NCBI GenBank assembly: GCA_036275915.1
Contig: DASUCV010000004.1
Location: 389,238-453,237, forward strand
DNA length: 64,000 nt
Reading direction: 5' to 3'
Origin: Candidatus Polarisedimenticolaceae bacterium
GTDB lineage: Bacteria; Acidobacteriota; Polarisedimenticolia; Polarisedimenticolales; DASRJG01
Shown: positions 18,975 to 58,528 of the stretch, piece by piece
How positions within the stretch are numbered: the first letter of the stretch is position 1
Layout of the letters: every line of letters begins with the position of its first letter
Made by a program: the position numbers and the translations under genes
The notes under the pieces: generated by a model
Databases searched by the model: none
What the model was told of the DNA's origin: nothing
Seen by the model: only the letters and a program-made list of their open reading frames with translations

Positions 18975-19477
18975 GACGGCCGCGCCCGCCCTTCCTGGCG
19001 GACGACCCGCTCGACGGCGGCCTTGAACGCCGCGTCGATCGTCCCGGCGCGCGCGACGATCGTCCCCTTCCGGTCGATGAGGAAGTGGGCCGGGATGTTG
19101 GTGGCACCGAACGCCGCGGTGACGGTACCGTCGGCATCGAAGAGGAGCCGGCCCGGATGCGGCTGCGAGGCGCCGAACTCCTGCAAGCGCGCCGCCGTCT
19201 GCCGCGTCGGCACCGCGACGAGGAACAGCCGATAGCCGTCCGCCTTCCAGCGGTCGTCGAGGTCGAAGAGCTTCGGCAGCTCCTGGACGCAGGGTTGGCA
19301 CCACGTCGCGAGGAACACGACGTGCATCGGCCCCTGCGCGGGGTCGAGCGCGACCTTCTCTCCCGTCGCGGGGTCGGTGGCGGCGGGAACCGGCGAGGGA
19401 AGCGACGCGGGCTGCTCGGCAGCGAGAGCCGCGCCGGCGAGGAGCGCCGCGCCCAGGAGCACACGGACGCGGCTCAT
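18971..19477 (-). CDS. Secreted TlpA-like thioredoxin-fold thiol reductase
   Basis: A 168-residue exported protein: signal peptide MSRVRVLLGAALLAGAALA, then a thioredoxin fold with active site WCQPC and cis-Pro loop NIPAHFLIDRKG. TlpA/ResA-type proteins reduce disulfides outside the cytoplasmic membrane, for example in cytochrome c maturation. It directly follows ccdA (ATGA overlap), which would supply electrons from the adjacent cytoplasmic thioredoxin. Anchoring is by cleavable or uncleaved signal; no lipobox is seen. Confidence 0.9.
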   Translation of the reverse strand: MSRVRVLLGAALLAGAALAAEQPASLPSPVPAATDPATGEKVALDPAQGPMHVVFLATWCQPCVQELPKLFDLDDRWKADGYRLFLVAVPTRQTAARLQEFGASQPHPGRLLFDADGTVTAAFGATNIPAHFLIDRKGTIVARAGTIDAAFKAAVERVVRQEGRARPS

Positions 19478-20217
19478 GCGCGACCCCCCATGTGCCTCCA
19501 GAGGTCGATGGCTTTCCATAGGAACCCAGCGCCGATCAGGATCATCGCGATGCCGAACCCCTTCTTGATGCGGTCCATCCATGCCCCGCCCCGCGGCAGG
19601 CTCGTCAGCAGTCCAGAAAATATGCCCAGGAGCATCAGGAGCAAACCGAGCCCCAGGGCGAACACGAAAAGGAGCGTCGCACCCCACGCGACGTTCTGTT
19701 TCTGGCCCACGTACGCGAGGAGGAGGCCCAGGACCGGCGCCGTGCACGGGGCGGCGACGAACCCGGCCGCGACCCCCATCAGGGCAGCGCCGGCGAACCC
19801 GCCGCGCCTGGCGCCCTGGCCCTGCACGCTGGTCATGAGCGCCGGGATCGTGAAGACGTCGAGCATCGAGAGGCCGAGCGCCATGATGACGAGCCCCACG
19901 GCGCCGAAGACCCAAGGCGAGCGTGTGAACTCTCCGAAGATCTTGCCGAGGAGCGACGCGACGACGCCGAGGGTCGCGTACATGAGCGAGAGTCCGAGGA
20001 CGTACGTGACCGACAGCGCCACGGCGCGCCGGCGGTTCCCTCCGGCGGCCCCGCCGATGTAGGTGACCGTCACCGGGATCATCGGGTAGACGCAGGGCGT
20101 CAGGCTGGTGAGGACGCCGGCCGCGAAGACGACGAACACGGCGCCCACCGAGCCGGCCTGGAGCTGCGCCTGGAGCGTCTGGCTCAGGTGGTAGCCCCAC
20201 TCGTTGAGGGTCTCCAC
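19474..20217 (-). CDS. ccdA: CcdA/DsbD-type transmembrane thiol-electron transporter
   Basis: A 247-residue membrane protein with about six helices. Two conserved cysteines sit in the inverted pseudo-repeats TSLTPCVYPMIPVT and AAPCTAPVLG, which pass electrons from cytoplasmic thioredoxin to periplasmic partners. It matches the transmembrane module of DsbD/CcdA without soluble domains. GTG start, one base after the trxA stop; stop overlaps the tlpA ATG. The order trxA-ccdA-tlpA forms a complete cytoplasm-to-periplasm reducing path in one operon. Confidence 0.9.
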   Translation of the reverse strand: METLNEWGYHLSQTLQAQLQAGSVGAVFVVFAAGVLTSLTPCVYPMIPVTVTYIGGAAGGNRRRAVALSVTYVLGLSLMYATLGVVASLLGKIFGEFTRSPWVFGAVGLVIMALGLSMLDVFTIPALMTSVQGQGARRGGFAGAALMGVAAGFVAAPCTAPVLGLLLAYVGQKQNVAWGATLLFVFALGLGLLLMLLGIFSGLLTSLPRGGAWMDRIKKGFGIAMILIGAGFLWKAIDLWRHMGGRA

Positions 20218-45123: not shown

Positions 45124-48100
45124 TCAATTCATGACGGCGGTGACCTCGTACTCGAAGAACCCCGAAGCCCCATCGAGGAACGAGGTGTCGGCCGTCGTCC
45201 CGATCCTCGTGAACGCCGCCATCGACCCGCGGATCCGCCGCCAGACGTGATATTTCGACGGTGCGCCGGTCCCATCTTCTAAATACGGTATGCGCCACTG
45301 CAGGCGCACTCCGGAACCCTCGCGCCGCAGCGTGAGCGAGTTCATCTCGAGCGCGCGGCCGGTATTGATCTCCTCGTCGAGGCACTTCGCCTGCGCGCAG
45401 GTGTCCGAGCTGCGCGATGCGCTCGAGAGGATCGCGTCCGATGCGGCGAGCGACTGCCCCACCGTCGTGTTCGACCCGCACTGCGAGTCGATCTCCTGCT
45501 GCGTGCACACGCGCGCGCGGCAGATGTTGAGAGCGAGCGCCATCAGGTCGTCGTCGGTGCGATCGCACGCGTCGCCGTTCGGCTGACTCGGTTGTAGCTC
45601 GGCGCAGAGATCCGCCACGGTCGAGATCCCGGCGAAGGCGTGCGCCACGCTCGCCACGCACACCGCGTCGGCGTCGGTGAATTCATCGCCCGAGTGCGGC
45701 CCGAGGCAGAGGCGCTTGTAGTAGCCGGTCGAGCGCGGGTTCGGCTCGTTCAGGCCGCTGAAGCTCGGCGTGCACGTGCCGCCGATGCACGCGTCGCCGG
45801 TGGTGCAGAGGCTGCCGTCGTTGCACGCGGTGCCGTCCGGCTTCGCGGGGTTCGAACACGCCCCGGTTGACGGATTGCAGACTCCCGCGTCGTGGCACTG
45901 ATCGAGCACAGCGCACACGACCGCGTTCGTGCCGGTGCACACGCCGGCGGAGCAGACGTCGGTCCGCGTGCAGGCGTTCCCGTCGTCGCAAGGCGCGGTG
46001 TTGTTCGTGAAGACGCAGCCCATCGCCGGGTTGCACGCGTCGTCAGTGCAGACGTTGCCGTCGTTGCAGACGACCGGTGCGCCGGCGCGACATGCGCCGC
46101 CGCCGCACACGTCACCACTCGTGCACGCGTTGCCGTCGTTGCAAGGCGCGGAGTTGTTCGTGTGGACGCAGCCGGTTGACGGGTTGCAGGAGTCGTCGGT
46201 GCACGGGTTGCCATCGTCGCAGTTCAAGGGCGCGCTGGCGCGGCAGGTCCCGCTGCCGTCGCAGAACTCGGCGCCGTTGCACGCGTTGCCGTCGGCGCAG
46301 GACGTTCCGGCCGTTGCCGGAACGTGAGTGCACCCACTCGCCGGATTGCACGCATCGACGGTGCAAGGGTTGCCGTCGTCGCAGTCGAGAGGAATCACGC
46401 TCAAGCAATGACCGGCGCCGTCGCACGCGTCGAGCGTGGTGCAGGCGTTGCCATCGTTGCACTCGGTGCCTTCGGCGGTCGCGATGTGCACGCAACCCGT
46501 CGCCGGGTCGCAGGAGTCGTCGGTGCATGGATTGCCGTCGTCGCACGACGCTTGGACCCCGCCGACGCAGACGCCGTTCCCGTTACAAACGTCATTCGTC
46601 GTGCACGCGTTCCCGTCATCGCAGGGGTAATCGGGATAGGACGGCCAATGCGAGCACTGGCAACCGGCATTCTCGTCGGCGTAGTCATCGGTGCATTGAT
46701 TGCCGTCGTCGCACACCGAATGCCCGACACAGTAACCGTCGGCGTCACAGCGATCGTCCAACGTGCAGTTGTAGTAATCGTTGCACGCGCTTCCGGTCGG
46801 TGCTTGCGGATAAACGCAACCAGCGTGAGGATCGCAGAGATCGAAGGTGCACGGGTTGCCGTCGTCGCAGCTAGACTCGACCGACGGCTCGTGCACACAT
46901 CCGACGTCGGGGCGACACGAGTCCGCCGTGCAGACATTGTCGTCATCGCAATCGACCGGACTTCCCCCCAAGCACGATCCGCTCTGGCACGATTCGCCTG
47001 CGATGCAGGCGTTCCCATCGTCACACGGCGAGCCGTCGGGAGCGGGCGCATTCAAACAGCCTGTGACCCTGTCACAGCTATCGATCGTGCAACTGTTCCC
47101 GTCGTCGCACGTCGAGCGCGGACTGTGGTAACACCCTGTGAGCGGGTAGCAGCTATCGTACGTACAAACGTCTCCGTCATCGCAGTTGAGCCGGCCGGTC
47201 GAAACGCAGTAGCCGTCCTGGCAGTGGTCACCCGTCGTGCACGCGTTCGAATCGTCGCAGTCACCGGTGAGTACGATGTTTTGGCACCCATCAATTCCGC
47301 GGCAGGTATCCGCGGTGCACGCGTTACCGTCGTCGCAGAGCGCATCGCCCCCGTTGTCGATGATGCCGTCGCCGTCGTCGTCGAGACCGTTGCACGTTTC
47401 CGAACCCGTGATGAAGTACTGGCCGCCGGAGTCCAGATACTGCCCGCCGGCCCCTCCCCAGATGATCATCGAGTGGCCCGTCCAAACCGCAGTGTGCTGC
47501 GAGCGCCCGGACGGTGCATCGATCAGCGACGTCCCCGGAAACGACCACTGCTTCGAGATCAGATCGAATTTTCCACCGGTATTCTTTCCATCGCCACCCC
47601 AGATCAGCATGTGGCGACCGGTCCAGATCGTGCTGAAGTGCCGATACACGCCTGGACCAGGGTTGTACTGAATCGTCCAGGTCCACGTGTCCGCTTGAGG
47701 ATCGTATTCCGGTACGCTCCCGAACAGCCCGTACGAGTAGATCAGCATCCGGCTTCCCGTCCAGACGGCGGATGGGTAACCGTAAGCGATAGGAGCGTTG
47801 ACCATCGACGTCGGAAGCCACGAATCGTCCGCGGGGTCGTACTGACCGCCGGTGGTGTCGTTCCAATATCCCCTGCCCCACACGATCATCTTCCGCCCGG
47901 TCCAGACGCACGCATGCCCTTGGCGCGCGCTCGGTGCGTTCAACAGGCTGGTCGGCTTCCACTGATCCAAGCCGGGACTGTATCGGCCGCCGTCGGCGAG
48001 ATCGTCGTAGTTGTAGTCGGTGCCACCCCAGACGACCATCTCATGTCCGGTCCAAATGGCGCTCTGAGCCAACCTGCCGGCGGGAGCGTTTTCGAGAGCG

Positions 48101-50298
48101 GTCGGCGACCATGAGTCGCTGATCGGATCGTAGCGCCCGCCCGAGATCGGAAACGAATAGGCATTGTCGTCTTGGCCGCCCCACACGATCATTTCGTGTC
48201 CCGTCCAGACGGTGGTGTGACCGCCCCGGGCGGTGGGAGCGCCGGTCGTCGTGGTGGGGCTCCACGCGTCCGTTGCGGGATCGTATCGCCCACCGGTCCC
48301 CAGAACCCAATCGCCGTAGCCTCCCCAGATGATCATCTCGTTCCCTGTCCAGACAGCGGTGTGATACCAGCGGCCGGAGGGACGGCCACCGGTCGATGTC
48401 GGCGTCCACTTGTCCGAGACCGGGTAATAGCGGCCGCCCGAGGACCCGGTTCCGCCGACATCACCGCCCCAGACGACCATCTCGTCGCCCGTCCATACCG
48501 CGGCGTGAGACGATCGAGGGAACTGCCCTTCCGAGCCGATGGGTCGCCAAGCGTCTACATTCGGGTCGTAGGCCGCGCCACCCGGCACATAGTTCTCGTC
48601 GCCGCGATCTCCCCCCCACACGATCATCTCTCTTCCGGTCCACACGGCGGAGTGGAGTGTGCGGGGTGCGGGCGCACCGGCGGTGGTCGTCGGAGCCCAA
48701 GAGTCCGTCGATGGGTCGTATCGAGCGCCCGTGTTCAACGCATTCGTGGGCCCAAGCCCTCCCCAAACGATCATGACCCGACCGGCCCAGATCACGGTCG
48801 ATCCGAAAGCGCTGTGGGGCTGGCCCACCGTGGAAACCGAGTTCCACGCATTCGCGACCGGATCGTAGCTGCCTCCCGATATGGATCCCGATCCGATGAC
48901 GAGCATGCGCTTCCCGGTCCACACGGCGGGGTTTCCCGACGATTGGGAAGGCGCGCCGACCACGGAAGTGGTGGTCCATGAGTCGGTTGAAGGATCGTAG
49001 ATGCCGCCAGTATCGGTTGATGCACCGGAGCTCGTGATGAAGCCCCCCCAGATGACCATCCCGGTGCCGGTCCAAACCGCCGTGTGTCCGAAGCGAGCGG
49101 ACGGCGCGCCCATCGTCGATGTTGGTGCCCAAGTGTCACTGACGGGGTTGTATCGTGCGCCGGAGTTCTGAATGGGACTGCCGCCCCAGACGATCATTTC
49201 CGATCCGGTCCACACCGCGCTGTAATCCGAGAGCGCCGTCGGCGCGTGCGCGCGGGCGATCGGCCTCCAGGTGTCCGTCGCGGGGTCGTAACGTGCGCCA
49301 GTCATGACACCATTCGGCTCGCCGCCCCAGACGATCATCTCCGTTCCCGTCCAGACGGCACGCGGCTTTTGTCGTGGGTGCGGCTCGTCGTCCAGGCTTC
49401 CGTTCACCCACGTGTCATCGGGCACCCGTTCCACCGGACGCACCGGCTGCTGCGGCAGCCGTCGAAGGCCGGCGGACGACGCCGCGGCGGCGAACGGGGC
49501 ATCCGTGCGCACCGTCGCAACGCTGCGTGTCCGCCACCAGTCGGCCCACGCCGCTTTTGCAACTGCGTAGGTCGCATACCGGAGATGATCCGGCGTCGCA
49601 CTCAACGAAACTGTGAAAGCGAAGGAATCGCTTCGCTCCTCGATGTCGGACATCTGCCCGATCTTCACGGGCAGCTTCTTCCGTCGTGCCGCAAAGTCAG
49701 CCGCGGAGAGCGACTCCGTGCGGAACGCGTTGCGCGCGGGTTCACCGAGGACGACCTCGCCTGCATGCCGACACGGATGCTCCGCTTCGACGCTCAACTC
49801 CCCACTAGCCAGCTTCCTGTGCAACTCCTCCGCTTCCTTCCTCTCCGCGACATGCATCGACGGATCAAAGTCGTAGAAGTTGTGCACGAGCCGATCGACG
49901 AGCGTCGCGCGGACGAGCGTCTCCTTGATGAGGAAGGCGTCGTTGCCGAGCGCGGCATAGAGCTCAGTAAGGCGCTCGGGCATGCGCGTGCCGTTCGCCA
50001 TGCGCTCGAGCTCGCGGTCGAGCATGAGGTCGGTGACGGAGGTCTTCCAGTAGGTCTGTAACGCGGCGGTCTCCTCGAGGGACTTGCGGACCTTCGCCTC
50101 GAGGACGGAGCGCGGGACGGCTTCTTCGAACGGCTTCGTCGTGCCGATCTGGTGGCGGTAGTAGACGCGCTCGATCGCCTCCTGGGCGCGGACGCGATCT
50201 TCGAAGGTAAGTGTGCGCGGCGCGGGCTCGGCTGCCCGGATTGCCGCGGCAGCGAGGCAGACACACGCCGCCCGACCCAGGATCGAACGCAGTTCCAT
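45124..50298 (-). CDS. Giant secreted protein: SurA-like N-terminus, 14 Kelch-type repeats, about 20 Cys-rich repeats
   Basis: A 1,724-residue exported protein. After a signal peptide (to about residue 23), residues ~28-260 resemble the helical SurA-type N-terminal region (FEDRVRAQEAIERVYYRHQ). Residues ~290-960 hold 14 repeats with the core AVWTG-x-EMIVWGG, each ending in a YDP-x-TDxW strand: enough for two seven-bladed propellers. About 20 Cys-rich repeats follow (type CDDGNPCTDDSC-x-GC), which resemble Ca-binding disulfide-rich rods, then a Cys-poor region and a C-terminal FN3-like domain (SGVRLQWRIP to EYEVTAVM). ATG 50298 has G-rich Shine-Dalgarno sequence and a TTGTAA/TATCTA promoter. 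Role is probably adhesion or cell-surface structure. Confidence 0.88.
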   Translation of the reverse strand: MELRSILGRAACVCLAAAAIRAAEPAPRTLTFEDRVRAQEAIERVYYRHQIGTTKPFEEAVPRSVLEAKVRKSLEETAALQTYWKTSVTDLMLDRELERMANGTRMPERLTELYAALGNDAFLIKETLVRATLVDRLVHNFYDFDPSMHVAERKEAEELHRKLASGELSVEAEHPCRHAGEVVLGEPARNAFRTESLSAADFAARRKKLPVKIGQMSDIEERSDSFAFTVSLSATPDHLRYATYAVAKAAWADWWRTRSVATVRTDAPFAAAASSAGLRRLPQQPVRPVERVPDDTWVNGSLDDEPHPRQKPRAVWTGTEMIVWGGEPNGVMTGARYDPATDTWRPIARAHAPTALSDYSAVWTGSEMIVWGGSPIQNSGARYNPVSDTWAPTSTMGAPSARFGHTAVWTGTGMVIWGGFITSSGASTDTGGIYDPSTDSWTTTSVVGAPSQSSGNPAVWTGKRMLVIGSGSISGGSYDPVANAWNSVSTVGQPHSAFGSTVIWAGRVMIVWGGLGPTNALNTGARYDPSTDSWAPTTTAGAPAPRTLHSAVWTGREMIVWGGDRGDENYVPGGAAYDPNVDAWRPIGSEGQFPRSSHAAVWTGDEMVVWGGDVGGTGSSGGRYYPVSDKWTPTSTGGRPSGRWYHTAVWTGNEMIIWGGYGDWVLGTGGRYDPATDAWSPTTTTGAPTARGGHTTVWTGHEMIVWGGQDDNAYSFPISGGRYDPISDSWSPTALENAPAGRLAQSAIWTGHEMVVWGGTDYNYDDLADGGRYSPGLDQWKPTSLLNAPSARQGHACVWTGRKMIVWGRGYWNDTTGGQYDPADDSWLPTSMVNAPIAYGYPSAVWTGSRMLIYSYGLFGSVPEYDPQADTWTWTIQYNPGPGVYRHFSTIWTGRHMLIWGGDGKNTGGKFDLISKQWSFPGTSLIDAPSGRSQHTAVWTGHSMIIWGGAGGQYLDSGGQYFITGSETCNGLDDDGDGIIDNGGDALCDDGNACTADTCRGIDGCQNIVLTGDCDDSNACTTGDHCQDGYCVSTGRLNCDDGDVCTYDSCYPLTGCYHSPRSTCDDGNSCTIDSCDRVTGCLNAPAPDGSPCDDGNACIAGESCQSGSCLGGSPVDCDDDNVCTADSCRPDVGCVHEPSVESSCDDGNPCTFDLCDPHAGCVYPQAPTGSACNDYYNCTLDDRCDADGYCVGHSVCDDGNQCTDDYADENAGCQCSHWPSYPDYPCDDGNACTTNDVCNGNGVCVGGVQASCDDGNPCTDDSCDPATGCVHIATAEGTECNDGNACTTLDACDGAGHCLSVIPLDCDDGNPCTVDACNPASGCTHVPATAGTSCADGNACNGAEFCDGSGTCRASAPLNCDDGNPCTDDSCNPSTGCVHTNNSAPCNDGNACTSGDVCGGGACRAGAPVVCNDGNVCTDDACNPAMGCVFTNNTAPCDDGNACTRTDVCSAGVCTGTNAVVCAVLDQCHDAGVCNPSTGACSNPAKPDGTACNDGSLCTTGDACIGGTCTPSFSGLNEPNPRSTGYYKRLCLGPHSGDEFTDADAVCVASVAHAFAGISTVADLCAELQPSQPNGDACDRTDDDLMALALNICRARVCTQQEIDSQCGSNTTVGQSLAASDAILSSASRSSDTCAQAKCLDEEINTGRALEMNSLTLRREGSGVRLQWRIPYLEDGTGAPSKYHVWRRIRGSMAAFTRIGTTADTSFLDGASGFFEYEVTAVMN
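45750..47400 (-). repeat. About 20 Cys-rich CDDGN-type protein repeats
   Basis: Region of the giant gene encoding degenerate repeats of 20-35 residues with the core C-D/N-D-G-N-x-C-T-x-D-x-C. They alternate in part between a GCVH-ended form and a C-x-GxC form. DNA is repetitive, producing long spurious open frames on the other strand. Boundaries are approximate. Confidence 0.85.
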
Positions 50299-50324
50299 GG
50301 ACGCCCCCAGGGACTCTGGGAGCG

Positions 50325-50353
50325 TAGATACGATGAATCTTAAGGAATTACAA
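50325..50353 (-). promoter_or_regulatory. Sigma-70-type promoter for the giant secreted protein
   Basis: On the minus strand: TTGTAA (50353-50348), a 17-base spacer, TATCTA (50330-50325), 26 bases before ATG 50298. A second -10-like TACGCT follows a few bases later. Confidence 0.55.
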
Positions 50354-50391
50354 CGAAGTTCGGGACGGGAACGGTCGTGAAGCGGAAGGAA

Positions 50392-50421
50392 GAGGACGGC
50401 CACCAGAGCATGGCCGTCCTC
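50392..50421 (-). terminator. Hairpin downstream of the VOC gene
   Basis: Perfect 11-bp stem (GAGGACGGCCA with its complement) around an 8-base loop, 15 bases after the VOC stop codon. Followed on the minus strand by a pyrimidine-rich stretch. Likely Rho-independent terminator isolating the VOC gene from the giant gene. Confidence 0.65.
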
Positions 50422-55708: not shown

Positions 55709-56371
55709 GTGATGATCGCGACGCTCCTCCTCGCGGCGACACTGGCCCCCGCCCCGCAGGTCGCGATGGCGACGCGCGACGGCAAGCCCGTCGCGCTCTC
55801 GAGCTACAAAGGGAAGGTGGTCGTCCTCGACTTCTGGGCGTCGTGGTGCGGCCCGTGCCGGAAGAGCTTCCCGTTCTTCGAGGGGCTGGAGTCGCGCTAC
55901 GCGCCGCAGGGGCTCGCGATCGTCGGGCTCTCCCTCGAGGATGACGACGAGGCGGTCGCGACGTTCCTCGAGGAGGTCCCGGCGTCGTTCGCGATCGCGC
56001 GCGACCCGAGCGGCCGCGCCGGCGAAGCGTTCGGCGTCGTCGCGATGCCGACGACGTTCCTGATCGACCGCGAGGGGAACGTCGCCGCGCGCTTCGAGGG
56101 CGGCGACGTGAGCGTCCACGAGAAGATCGAGGCGGCGGTCAAGACGCTCCTCGCCGGAGGAGCGCTGCCCGACGGGACCGACGTGCGGGTCGCGTCGAGC
56201 CTCCATGCGACCGGCAGCCTCAAGGCGTGGGAGCGCGGCTATCTCGCCGACCCGATCATGAGCCTCGACGGAAGCCCGCTTTCGAGGATCATCAAGGAGC
56301 ACATCCACGCGAGCAAGGAAGGAGCGTCCGGCGACGGCGGCGCTGCCGGCGGCGGCTGTGGCTGTAACTAG
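55709..56371 (+). CDS. Exported TlpA-like thioredoxin fused to a DUF4266 tail
   Basis: A 220-residue two-domain protein. A short hydrophobic N-terminus (MMIATLLLAATLAPAPQ) is a likely signal peptide; residues ~20-145 are a thioredoxin fold with active site Cys47-Cys50 (FWASWCGPCRK) and cis-Pro (AMPTTFLIDREG). Residues ~155-220 match DUF4266 (SSLHATGSLKAWERGYLADP, then HIHASKE) and end in a flexible Gly-rich tail with GGGCGCN, a CxC pair at 217/219. DUF4266 is usually a separate small lipoprotein. It overlaps the DUF3570 gene by 14 bases. Function is unknown; the CxC tail may be a substrate or metal site for the thioredoxin domain. Confidence 0.8.
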   Translation: MMIATLLLAATLAPAPQVAMATRDGKPVALSSYKGKVVVLDFWASWCGPCRKSFPFFEGLESRYAPQGLAIVGLSLEDDDEAVATFLEEVPASFAIARDPSGRAGEAFGVVAMPTTFLIDREGNVAARFEGGDVSVHEKIEAAVKTLLAGGALPDGTDVRVASSLHATGSLKAWERGYLADPIMSLDGSPLSRIIKEHIHASKEGASGDGGAAGGGCGCN

Positions 56372-57563
56372 GAGGCGTCGCCAGCAGGCGCTCCGGCGAA
56401 GCCGCCTTCCCCTCGTCCTCGCCGGTGTCGGCGGTCTCGCCGCCGGGAGCGCGCGCGCGCAGTCGAGCCTCGAGTTCCGGTATCTCCTGTACCAGGAATC
56501 GAACAACCGCACCGAGGTCTCGAACCCCTGGATCTTCCTCAACCACGACTTCGGGCAGAAGGGCGGGCAGCTCTCGCTGCTCCTCGGCTACGACACGATC
56601 TCGGGCGCCTCGCCCACGGGCGCGTATCCGACGACCGACACGACGACCTCCGCCTCGGGATCGCACACGTCGAGCTCGTTCCCGATGGCCGAGTATCACG
56701 ACACGCGCAAGTCCGTGACGGCTTCGTATGGGCGGAAGTTCGGCGCGAACCTTCCTTCGGTCGACCTCTCGTACTCGAAGGAGAACGATTACACCGCGCG
56801 CGGCGCCGGCCTCTCGGACGCGTGGACGATGGCGAAGGGGCGCGGCACGCTCCACGCCGGCATCGCCTTCTCGCGGGACATCGTGACGCCCGTGACGACG
56901 AGGGTCGACCATCCGAAGTCGAGCGACAGCTACGCCCTCGGTTGGAGCTGGATCCTCGGCGAGCGGGACCTGTTCGACGTCTCGGCATCGCTGGCCCGGC
57001 TCTCCGGCTATCTCGACGACCCGTACAAGGTCGTTCCCGTCGGATCGCCGACGACGACGGTGCCCGAGCACCGGCCCGACGCGCGCTCGCGCTACGCGGC
57101 GATCTTCAAGTACGGCCACTTCTTCGTCGACGCGAACGGCGCGCTCAAGGTCAGCTACCGGTACTACTGGGACGACTGGGCGATCGGCGCCCACACCGTC
57201 GAGCTGCTGTACGACCAGCGGTTCGGATCCAGGTGGACCGTCTCGCCGCTGGTGCGCCTCTACACGCAATCCCACGCGTCGTTCTTCGGCTACGAGTTCG
57301 CCGTCGCCCAGACGTACATGTCGGCCGATTATCGCCTCTCCGCGTTCGACAGCGTCCTCGGCGGCCTGACGATCGCGTACGCGATCCGGCCGAACCTCGT
57401 CCTGAGCGTGGGCGCCACCTACCAGAGCCAGCACGGACGCGACCGCATCACGCCGCTCTCCGCTGTCCCGCCGTCGGACGATGGCGGGGGCGGCCCGGGA
57501 ACCGCCTCCGCGGCCGACATGAACGTCACGACCGGGACGATCGGGCTCACCTGGCGCTACTGA
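56358..57563 (+). CDS. DUF3570 outer-membrane beta-barrel protein
   Basis: A 401-residue exported protein: signal peptide (LPLVLAGVGGLAAGSARAQ, cleaved about residue 34-35) and a series of amphipathic beta strands ending in aromatic residues (final residue Tyr: GTIGLTWRY), typical of an outer-membrane barrel. It matches DUF3570. Residues 79-85 read DTISGAS, which fits the D-x-x-S/T-G-A-S/T pattern flavinylated by ApbE, and apbE is the next gene. The only in-frame start is GTG 56358, inside the upstream gene. An AGGAGG lies just downstream of it, so translation is probably coupled. Flavinylation is inferred. Confidence 0.82.
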   Translation: MAVTRRRRQQALRRSRLPLVLAGVGGLAAGSARAQSSLEFRYLLYQESNNRTEVSNPWIFLNHDFGQKGGQLSLLLGYDTISGASPTGAYPTTDTTTSASGSHTSSSFPMAEYHDTRKSVTASYGRKFGANLPSVDLSYSKENDYTARGAGLSDAWTMAKGRGTLHAGIAFSRDIVTPVTTRVDHPKSSDSYALGWSWILGERDLFDVSASLARLSGYLDDPYKVVPVGSPTTTVPEHRPDARSRYAAIFKYGHFFVDANGALKVSYRYYWDDWAIGAHTVELLYDQRFGSRWTVSPLVRLYTQSHASFFGYEFAVAQTYMSADYRLSAFDSVLGGLTIAYAIRPNLVLSVGATYQSQHGRDRITPLSAVPPSDDGGGGPGTASAADMNVTTGTIGLTWRY

Positions 57564-57565
57564 GC

Positions 57566-58528
57566 GTGGACGAAAGGACGCTCTACACCACGCGGTTCGC
57601 GCTCATGGGCGGGTCGGGGCTGATCCGCTTCGTCGACCGCCGCGGCCGCACGGAGGCGCAGCGTCTCGCGCGCGCGGCCGAAGCGGAGGCGCTCCGCATC
57701 GAATGGAAATTCTCCCGCTATCGCGAGGCGAGCGTCGTCTCCGAGATCACCCGCAACGCGGGACGGACGCCGGTCGCCGTCGACGACGAGACGGAGCTCC
57801 TCGTCGCGGCGGCGCTCGATCTCGCGCGCCTCACGCGCGGCCGGTTCGACCCGACGGTCGGTGTCCTCCGTCGCGCGTGGGACTTCCGCGCGCGGCGCGT
57901 CCCGGCACCGGACGAGATCGCGGCGCTCCTGCCGCTCGTGAATTTCGAGGCAGTGTCGATCCGCGAGAAGACGGTGTTCCTCCGCCGGCCCGGGATGGAG
58001 CTCGACCTCGGGGGGGTCGGCAAGGAGTACGCCGCCGACCGCGTCGCCGATTTGCTCGAGGAGGGCGGCGTCGAGTCGGCGCTCATCAACTTCGCGGGCG
58101 ACGTCCGGACCGTCGGAGGGCGGGGCGACGGCTGGCCGTGGTCGGTCGGCGTCGCCGATCCGCGCGAGGCGGGGCGGGTCCGCTTCGCGCTGCGGTTCCC
58201 GGGCGCGGCCGGTGTCGCCACCTCGGGCGACTACGAGCGCTGCTTCGTCGTGGACGGCGTCCGCTACCACCACCTCCTCGACGCGACGACCGGCCGCCCC
58301 GCGCGAGGCGTCGCGTCGGCGACCGTGCTCGCGCGGACGGCGTTCGAGGCCGGCCGTCTCGCGACCGCGTCGTTCCTCCTCGGCGCGGACGAGGGTCTCA
58401 CGGTCATCGCGCGCGGAGGCGCCGAAGGCGCGCTGGTGCTGGAAGACGGATCGATCCGCGCGACCCCGGGAATGGACCGGTACTCCGATCTCCCCGGCAG
58501 CCTCTACGCCGCGTACCCGGCGATCTAG
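57566..58528 (+). CDS. apbE: ApbE-like FAD:protein FMN transferase with a changed Mg site
   Basis: A 320-residue member of the ApbE family, which attaches FMN to Thr/Ser of exported proteins. Motifs are present: FSRYREASVVSEI, DLGGVGKEYAADR (Gly149-Gly150, Lys153), NFAGDVRTVGG and HHLLDATTGRPARG. The usual A-D-A-L-x-T Mg motif reads AGRLAT: Gly263 replaces the Asp ligand, while Thr267 is kept. There is no signal peptide, whereas most ApbE proteins are exported lipoproteins. GTG start 3 bases after the DUF3570 stop. It may act in the cytoplasm, use another ligand, or be inactive. The 3' end overlaps selA by 4 bases. Confidence 0.85.
   Translation: MDERTLYTTRFALMGGSGLIRFVDRRGRTEAQRLARAAEAEALRIEWKFSRYREASVVSEITRNAGRTPVAVDDETELLVAAALDLARLTRGRFDPTVGVLRRAWDFRARRVPAPDEIAALLPLVNFEAVSIREKTVFLRRPGMELDLGGVGKEYAADRVADLLEEGGVESALINFAGDVRTVGGRGDGWPWSVGVADPREAGRVRFALRFPGAAGVATSGDYERCFVVDGVRYHHLLDATTGRPARGVASATVLARTAFEAGRLATASFLLGADEGLTVIARGGAEGALVLEDGSIRATPGMDRYSDLPGSLYAAYPAI

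Follow-up and report, generated by a model that had tools for sequence, protein, structure and literature searches.

The window, a stretch of 64,000 nucleotides from a Candidatus Polarisedimenticolaceae bacterium of the phylum Acidobacteriota, encodes a protein in which a TlpA/ResA-like thioredoxin domain and a complete DUF4266 domain are fused in a single reading frame (Table 1). This in-frame fusion is confirmed. DUF4266 is otherwise found as a small separate lipoprotein; in the fused form the lipid anchor is lost and the thioredoxin stands in its place. The fusion appears from phylogenetic analysis to have arisen at least twice, and it lies in an operon with the genes for a predicted outer-membrane barrel, putatively flavinylated, and an FMN transferase.

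Read from the GTG at its first position, the fused product comprises 220 amino acids; an ATG at position 55712 is an alternative start. The signal peptide is weak and has no basic n-region. Pfam assigns residues 14–134 to Redoxin (E 9.9e-26) and, in the same frame, residues 172–220 to DUF4266 (PF14086; E 3e-20, positions 2–50 of the 50-position profile). Both matches pass the Pfam cut-offs, with 73.3 bits against the gathering cut-off of 27 for DUF4266 and 90.7 against 26.6 for the redoxin families (AhpC-TSA, Redoxin), the latter including the WCGPC motif. The union of DUF4266 with a TlpA-like domain that carries WCGPC, as proposed in a preliminary description of this DNA, is thereby borne out. 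Its extent is larger than described there: not merely a Cys tail but the whole 50-residue DUF4266 domain is attached, and the interval given for the fusion (56150–56371) covers the linker and DUF4266 only, with the gene starting at 55709 or 55712. No lipobox precedes the DUF4266 domain, which ends in GGGCGCN and is redoxin-fused rather than a stand-alone lipoprotein. All 19 DUF4266 domains that were aligned share the CxC pair. Across 17 aligned fusions, the invariant positions include both active-site cysteines and the proline following Met112, presumably the cis-proline, in the thioredoxin part, and Trp173, Arg175, Met183, His197, Glu203, Cys216 and Cys218 in the DUF4266 part.

Table 1. Positions in the window of the fused gene, its parts, the operon partners and a candidate electron donor.
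Feature	Position	Strand	Evidence and remarks
Fused gene	55709..56371	+	Signal-like N-terminus, TlpA/ResA-like thioredoxin domain, linker, DUF4266; Pfam, ORF list, in-frame homologues
TlpA/ResA-like thioredoxin domain, residues 25–144	55781..56140	+	HMM built here; Pfam Redoxin; PDB relatives 3gl3, ResA, TlpA
WCGPC active-site motif	55844..55858	+	Sequence reading; Trp, both Cys and Pro invariant in 17/17 aligned fusions
Linker, 26 residues in the window protein	56141..56218	+	22–27 residues across 18 fused records (17 distinct loci)
DUF4266 domain, complete	56219..56368	+	Pfam and HMM; low-confidence model, pLDDT below 50 at residues 177–219
C-terminal CGC (CxC) motif	56357..56365	+	Sequence reading; followed by Asn and stop (to 56371)
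DUF3570	56358..57563	+	Pfam E 8.9e-59; overlaps the end of the fused gene by 14 bases
SGAS, first [S/T]GA[S/T] flavinylation-type motif of DUF3570	56601..56612	+	Sequence reading; function according to PMC8238504
ApbE FMN transferase	57566..58528	+	Pfam E 8.6e-71 on 57701–58528; recognisable signal peptide absent
DsbD_TM/CcdA-like transmembrane gene	19474..20217	-	36 kb from the operon; followed by its own TlpA-like gene

A sequencing error or missed stop, which had been named as the alternative that would undo the fusion, is ruled out by 15 genomes sharing the same in-frame arrangement. Frame length alone would mislead in this respect, because high-GC genomes have long non-fusion frames upstream of DUF4266. 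Five control loci of this kind (L147, L192, L195, L202 and L206) possess a long frame, lack an in-frame WCxxC and carry a lipobox immediately before DUF4266; unlike these, the window ORF scores for both domains on one frame.

Among 396 genomes sampled from the Acidobacteriota, 32 contain DUF4266. A search for other fusions, as had been suggested, located thioredoxin and DUF4266 on one frame in 15 of these 32 and on separate frames in 17. Three further fused records, all from Holophagaceae, were present among the best 80 of 146 matches in a scan of named contigs. The fused set therefore consists of 18 records but 17 distinct loci, since L052 and the already counted L123 lie on one and the same contig; this contig belongs to a Holophagaceae genome, which assigns the genome sample to the Acidobacteriota. 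All 18 records display WCxPC, a linker of 22–27 residues and the GGGCGCN end. No thioredoxin–DUF4266 fusion was found among the 98 DUF4266-bearing of 345 Bacteroidota/Chlorobiota genomes, where 30 loci were read and the remainder judged by their open frames, which at a length of at most 156 amino acids are too short to hold both domains. Likewise, none was found among the 30 matching of 398 Pseudomonadota genomes: reading the long frames of L192, L195, L199, L202 and L206 revealed no thioredoxin fusion, and L205, a weak DUF4266 match below the cut-off, was judged false. The names of the two comparison phyla rest on their centre genomes (L107, Chlorobium, and L036, Shewanella). A tblastn search of plasmids gave matches to the thioredoxin part only, none covering 80% of the query.

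Several DUF4266 variants were observed in addition. In L199 and L200 of the Pseudomonadota sample, the domain is preceded by roughly 100 additional residues with neither a thioredoxin motif nor a pre-domain lipobox, which is another route to losing the lipid anchor. A subtype in which WVKPYER replaces PWER occurs in L177, L178, L179, L188, L195, L197 and L198, and two DUF4266 copies in some genomes were noted along with these loci. In L130 (genome G029), CxC is followed by some 25 further residues, the TlpA frame is short, and DUF3570 was not found; this locus may be degraded, frameshifted or subject to an assembly fault.

In the 94 loci with a separate DUF4266 gene the product is small, and a lipobox-like cysteine situated just before the domain is recognized strictly in 81 and by eye in 12 more; in the remaining one (L108) the N-terminus lies beyond the contig end. 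This agrees with the preliminary description, in which DUF4266 is usually a small lipoprotein with a terminal CxC. The mature peptide mostly has 53–56 residues and hence contains little beyond DUF4266 plus lipid. The +2 residue after the lipobox cysteine is Ala, Ser or Thr in 83 of 92 cases and never Asp. In E. coli, the +2 residue governs the membrane destination of lipoproteins, and by this sorting rule the pattern points to the outer membrane as the putative destination of the separate DUF4266 lipoproteins.

In a tree of 87 of the 112 loci, from which L052 and the loci without one of the four genes (TlpA, DUF4266, DUF3570, ApbE) were left out, the fused label requires two changes. Trees of DUF3570 and ApbE for 37 loci, with the fused gene excluded, unite the fusions in 0 of 200 bootstrap trees. 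A single origin is rejected by AU tests on these 37 rows, which were hand-picked to span the clades and include 12 of the 17 distinct fused loci (p 1.9e-16 with DUF3570 and ApbE only, p 9.2e-5 with TlpA, DUF3570 and ApbE). One fusion clade comprises the window, Holophagaceae and further members of the order and class to which the window belongs. The second consists of L111, L112, L113 and L120 and adjoins the gammaproteobacterial locus L080, which suggests that the operon may have crossed between phyla before that fusion.

Directly behind the fused gene lie DUF3570 and ApbE, the latter also matched by the NCBIfam ApbE model over its whole length, below the model's cut-off. Upstream of the fused gene is YchF, and past ApbE, on the opposite strand, is SelA (both Pfam); neither looks related to the operon. 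Across the 112 records, TlpA–DUF4266–DUF3570–ApbE predominates by a wide margin as the gene order, with 59 separate and 17 fused cases. DUF3570 is located near DUF4266 in 110 of the 112 loci, and 107 have a TlpA match no more than 3.5 kb away on the same strand. In L047 and L088 the only thioredoxin-like frame is on the opposite strand, and in L040 and L041 no TlpA match was found near DUF4266 despite the presence of flanking DNA; pairing within the operon is thus not obligatory. A DsbD-like gene occurs near 16 of the 112 loci and near none of the 18 fused records. The genome of the window contains two DsbD_TM genes, both outside the operon, and the one located within the window is a possible candidate for the electron donor. 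Elsewhere in the window, a 1759-residue ORF (45124–50403, minus strand) contains many Kelch-like WTGxEMIVWGG and Cys-rich DDGNxCT repeats.

The AlphaFold model of the fused protein (17 sequences) displays a confident thioredoxin fold. The tail, where confidence is low, is probably flexible or disordered and could therefore reach the active site, although no contact between the tail and WCGPC is predicted in the model. For DUF3570 the model has a mean pLDDT of 91.9 and forms a barrel of about 16 strands, as counted from the strand list. Its best Foldseek matches are the outer-membrane barrels PelB, OmpG, FadL and BcsC, and the last residue is Phe, Tyr or Trp in 90 of 110 DUF3570 frames, incomplete frames included. 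Profile searches of the PDB with DUF4266 and DUF3570 gave chance matches only. The SGAS motif (residues 68–71 of the modelled protein) ends strand 3 in front of a long loop (residues 73–95), and strand counting would place this loop on the extracellular face of the barrel. All 17 distinct fused loci retain a motif of this type. The strict second [S/T]GA[S/T] motif is absent from all 17, with ASGSH at the corresponding site in the window; since it occurs in 20 of 107 aligned DUF3570 sequences, it is not general to these loci. Six loci from one Acidobacteriota group (L125, L128, L129, L131, L133 and L134) have a DUF3570 without the strict SGAS-type motif, and nearby at the same site a CxxC-like pair (ASDSCxRC) is observed.

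A simple hydrophobicity test indicates a signal peptide in 15 of 91 operon ApbE frames, with none in the fused operons or in most proteobacterial ones. According to a review of ApbE (PMC12052999), the enzyme is secreted in most cases and cytosolic in few. In the present operons, where the substrate of ApbE resembles an outer-membrane barrel, attachment of FMN may precede export.

Taken together, a periplasmic thiol relay coupled in cis and feeding a flavinylated outer-membrane barrel is the most likely reading, and one that we consider moderately probable. The TlpA/ResA-type domain would be reduced by a DsbD-type membrane donor encoded elsewhere in the genome, WCGPC would exchange electrons with the CGC pair that ends its own flexible DUF4266 tail, and this pair would deliver them to the FMN that ApbE attached to the DUF3570 barrel. 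In most bacteria the equivalent tail is a lipoprotein in its own right, about 55 residues long, that would be reached in trans, and in the Acidobacteriota fusions the thioredoxin itself has replaced the lipid anchor. Reduction of CxC in cis by its own thioredoxin is plausible, given the predicted flexibility of the tail. However, fusion comes easily to neighbouring genes with little space between them and by itself is no proof of contact, and since the tail works without covalent linkage in the separate system, exchange in cis is not required. A neutral event, in which co-operonic genes lost the intervening stop and the product works like its separate parts with no reaction in cis, would agree with the unfused system of most bacteria and with the short distance between the TlpA stop and the DUF4266 domain (usually 50–120 nt in separate loci with TlpA first; in L126, for example, there is a 4-nt overlap between the two genes). 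This explanation is improbable, as the fusion has two origins, each of which has persisted through several families, and linker lengths vary within a narrow range.

TlpA/Sco-type proteins keep the cysteines of copper sites reduced for metal loading, and CxC could likewise be a site for copper, iron or zinc whose cysteines the thioredoxin keeps reduced. CxC, the invariant Met and Glu, and the His that is invariant in the fused set are possible ligands, and VIT1 iron transporters are reported in 25 clusters in the sections of PMC8238504 consulted. The His, however, is not conserved across the DUF4266 family (A1), no metal transporter lies beside the window operon, where the neighbours are YchF and SelA, and the constant partners are flavin-related; a metal site is therefore unlikely. 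Metallation of CxC by the thioredoxin, which the preliminary description had also envisaged, gains no specific support here. As sequence does not fix the direction, electrons could also run the other way, with the flavinylated barrel oxidizing CxC and then the thioredoxin in an oxidative thiol pathway; nothing that positively favours this was found. The forward direction is assigned solely by kinship: the nearest relatives of known structure bear the names ResA, TlpA and DsbE, which are reductases. DsbD donors in some such clusters, also noted in PMC8238504 as far as consulted, likewise speak against reverse flow, which is very unlikely.

More speculatively, and with doubt prevailing, the operon as a whole could form a haem-free outer-membrane electron conduit, in which a swinging CxC arm of the periplasmic thioredoxin feeds an FMN near the extracellular loops of the roughly 16-stranded barrel, the FMN having been attached by a signal-less cytosolic ApbE before export. 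In the Acidobacteriota fusions, the periplasmic half would then consist of a single piece. That DUF4266 was joined to one and the same neighbour in two separate events makes the thioredoxin the foremost candidate for its direct redox partner. DUF4266 is a domain for which sequence searches found no solved relative. Moreover, the fusion offers a single purifiable protein for probing the proposed path from WCGPC via CxC to the flavin, and the DUF3570 model raises a testable, cytochrome-free electron exit route for Gram-negative cells.

Comparison with known oxidoreductases reveals that the fused protein shares its fold family and WCxxC with ResA, TlpA and CcmG(DsbE), from which the DUF4266 tail sets it apart; its scores also fall short of the NCBIfam cut-offs for all three, ResA (96 versus 170), DsbE and TlpA. 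The best PDB match of the fused family's profile is 3gl3, annotated as a putative DsbE (1.8e-46), which is likewise matched by the operon TlpA of Chlorobium (L107; 5.8e-64). The latter, however, has no DUF4266 tail, and DUF4266 is encoded there by the next gene as a lipoprotein.

The thioredoxin/DUF4266/DUF3570/ApbE cluster has already been published (PMC8238504; eLife 2021;10:e66878), and a literature search found no other paper naming DUF4266, DUF3570 or PF14086. According to the sections consulted, [S/T]GA[S/T] is the flavinylation motif and is present twice in DUF3570, flavinylation of DUF3570 by ApbE was established by experiment in Chlorobium luteolum, DsbD donors accompany some of the clusters, and the DUF4266 CxC was proposed to redox-cycle, with the link drawn from gene neighbourhoods. 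The words fused, fusion and barrel do not occur in the main text of that paper, supplements aside. The window operon contains all four components, which it has in common with the DsbD-type clusters described there. It differs in that thioredoxin and DUF4266 form one polypeptide without a lipobox, DUF3570 has one strict flavinylation motif instead of two and, compared with the DsbD-type subset, DsbD is absent from the operon. The Rosetta-stone link seen in the preliminary description is accordingly genuine and recurrent, with at least two origins, but it is not the first clue to DUF4266 function, as thioredoxin and DUF4266 had been linked in that paper. In conclusion, the fusion is independent support for the existing redox-cycling hypothesis rather than a new hypothesis, and the present analysis adds the barrel model to it.
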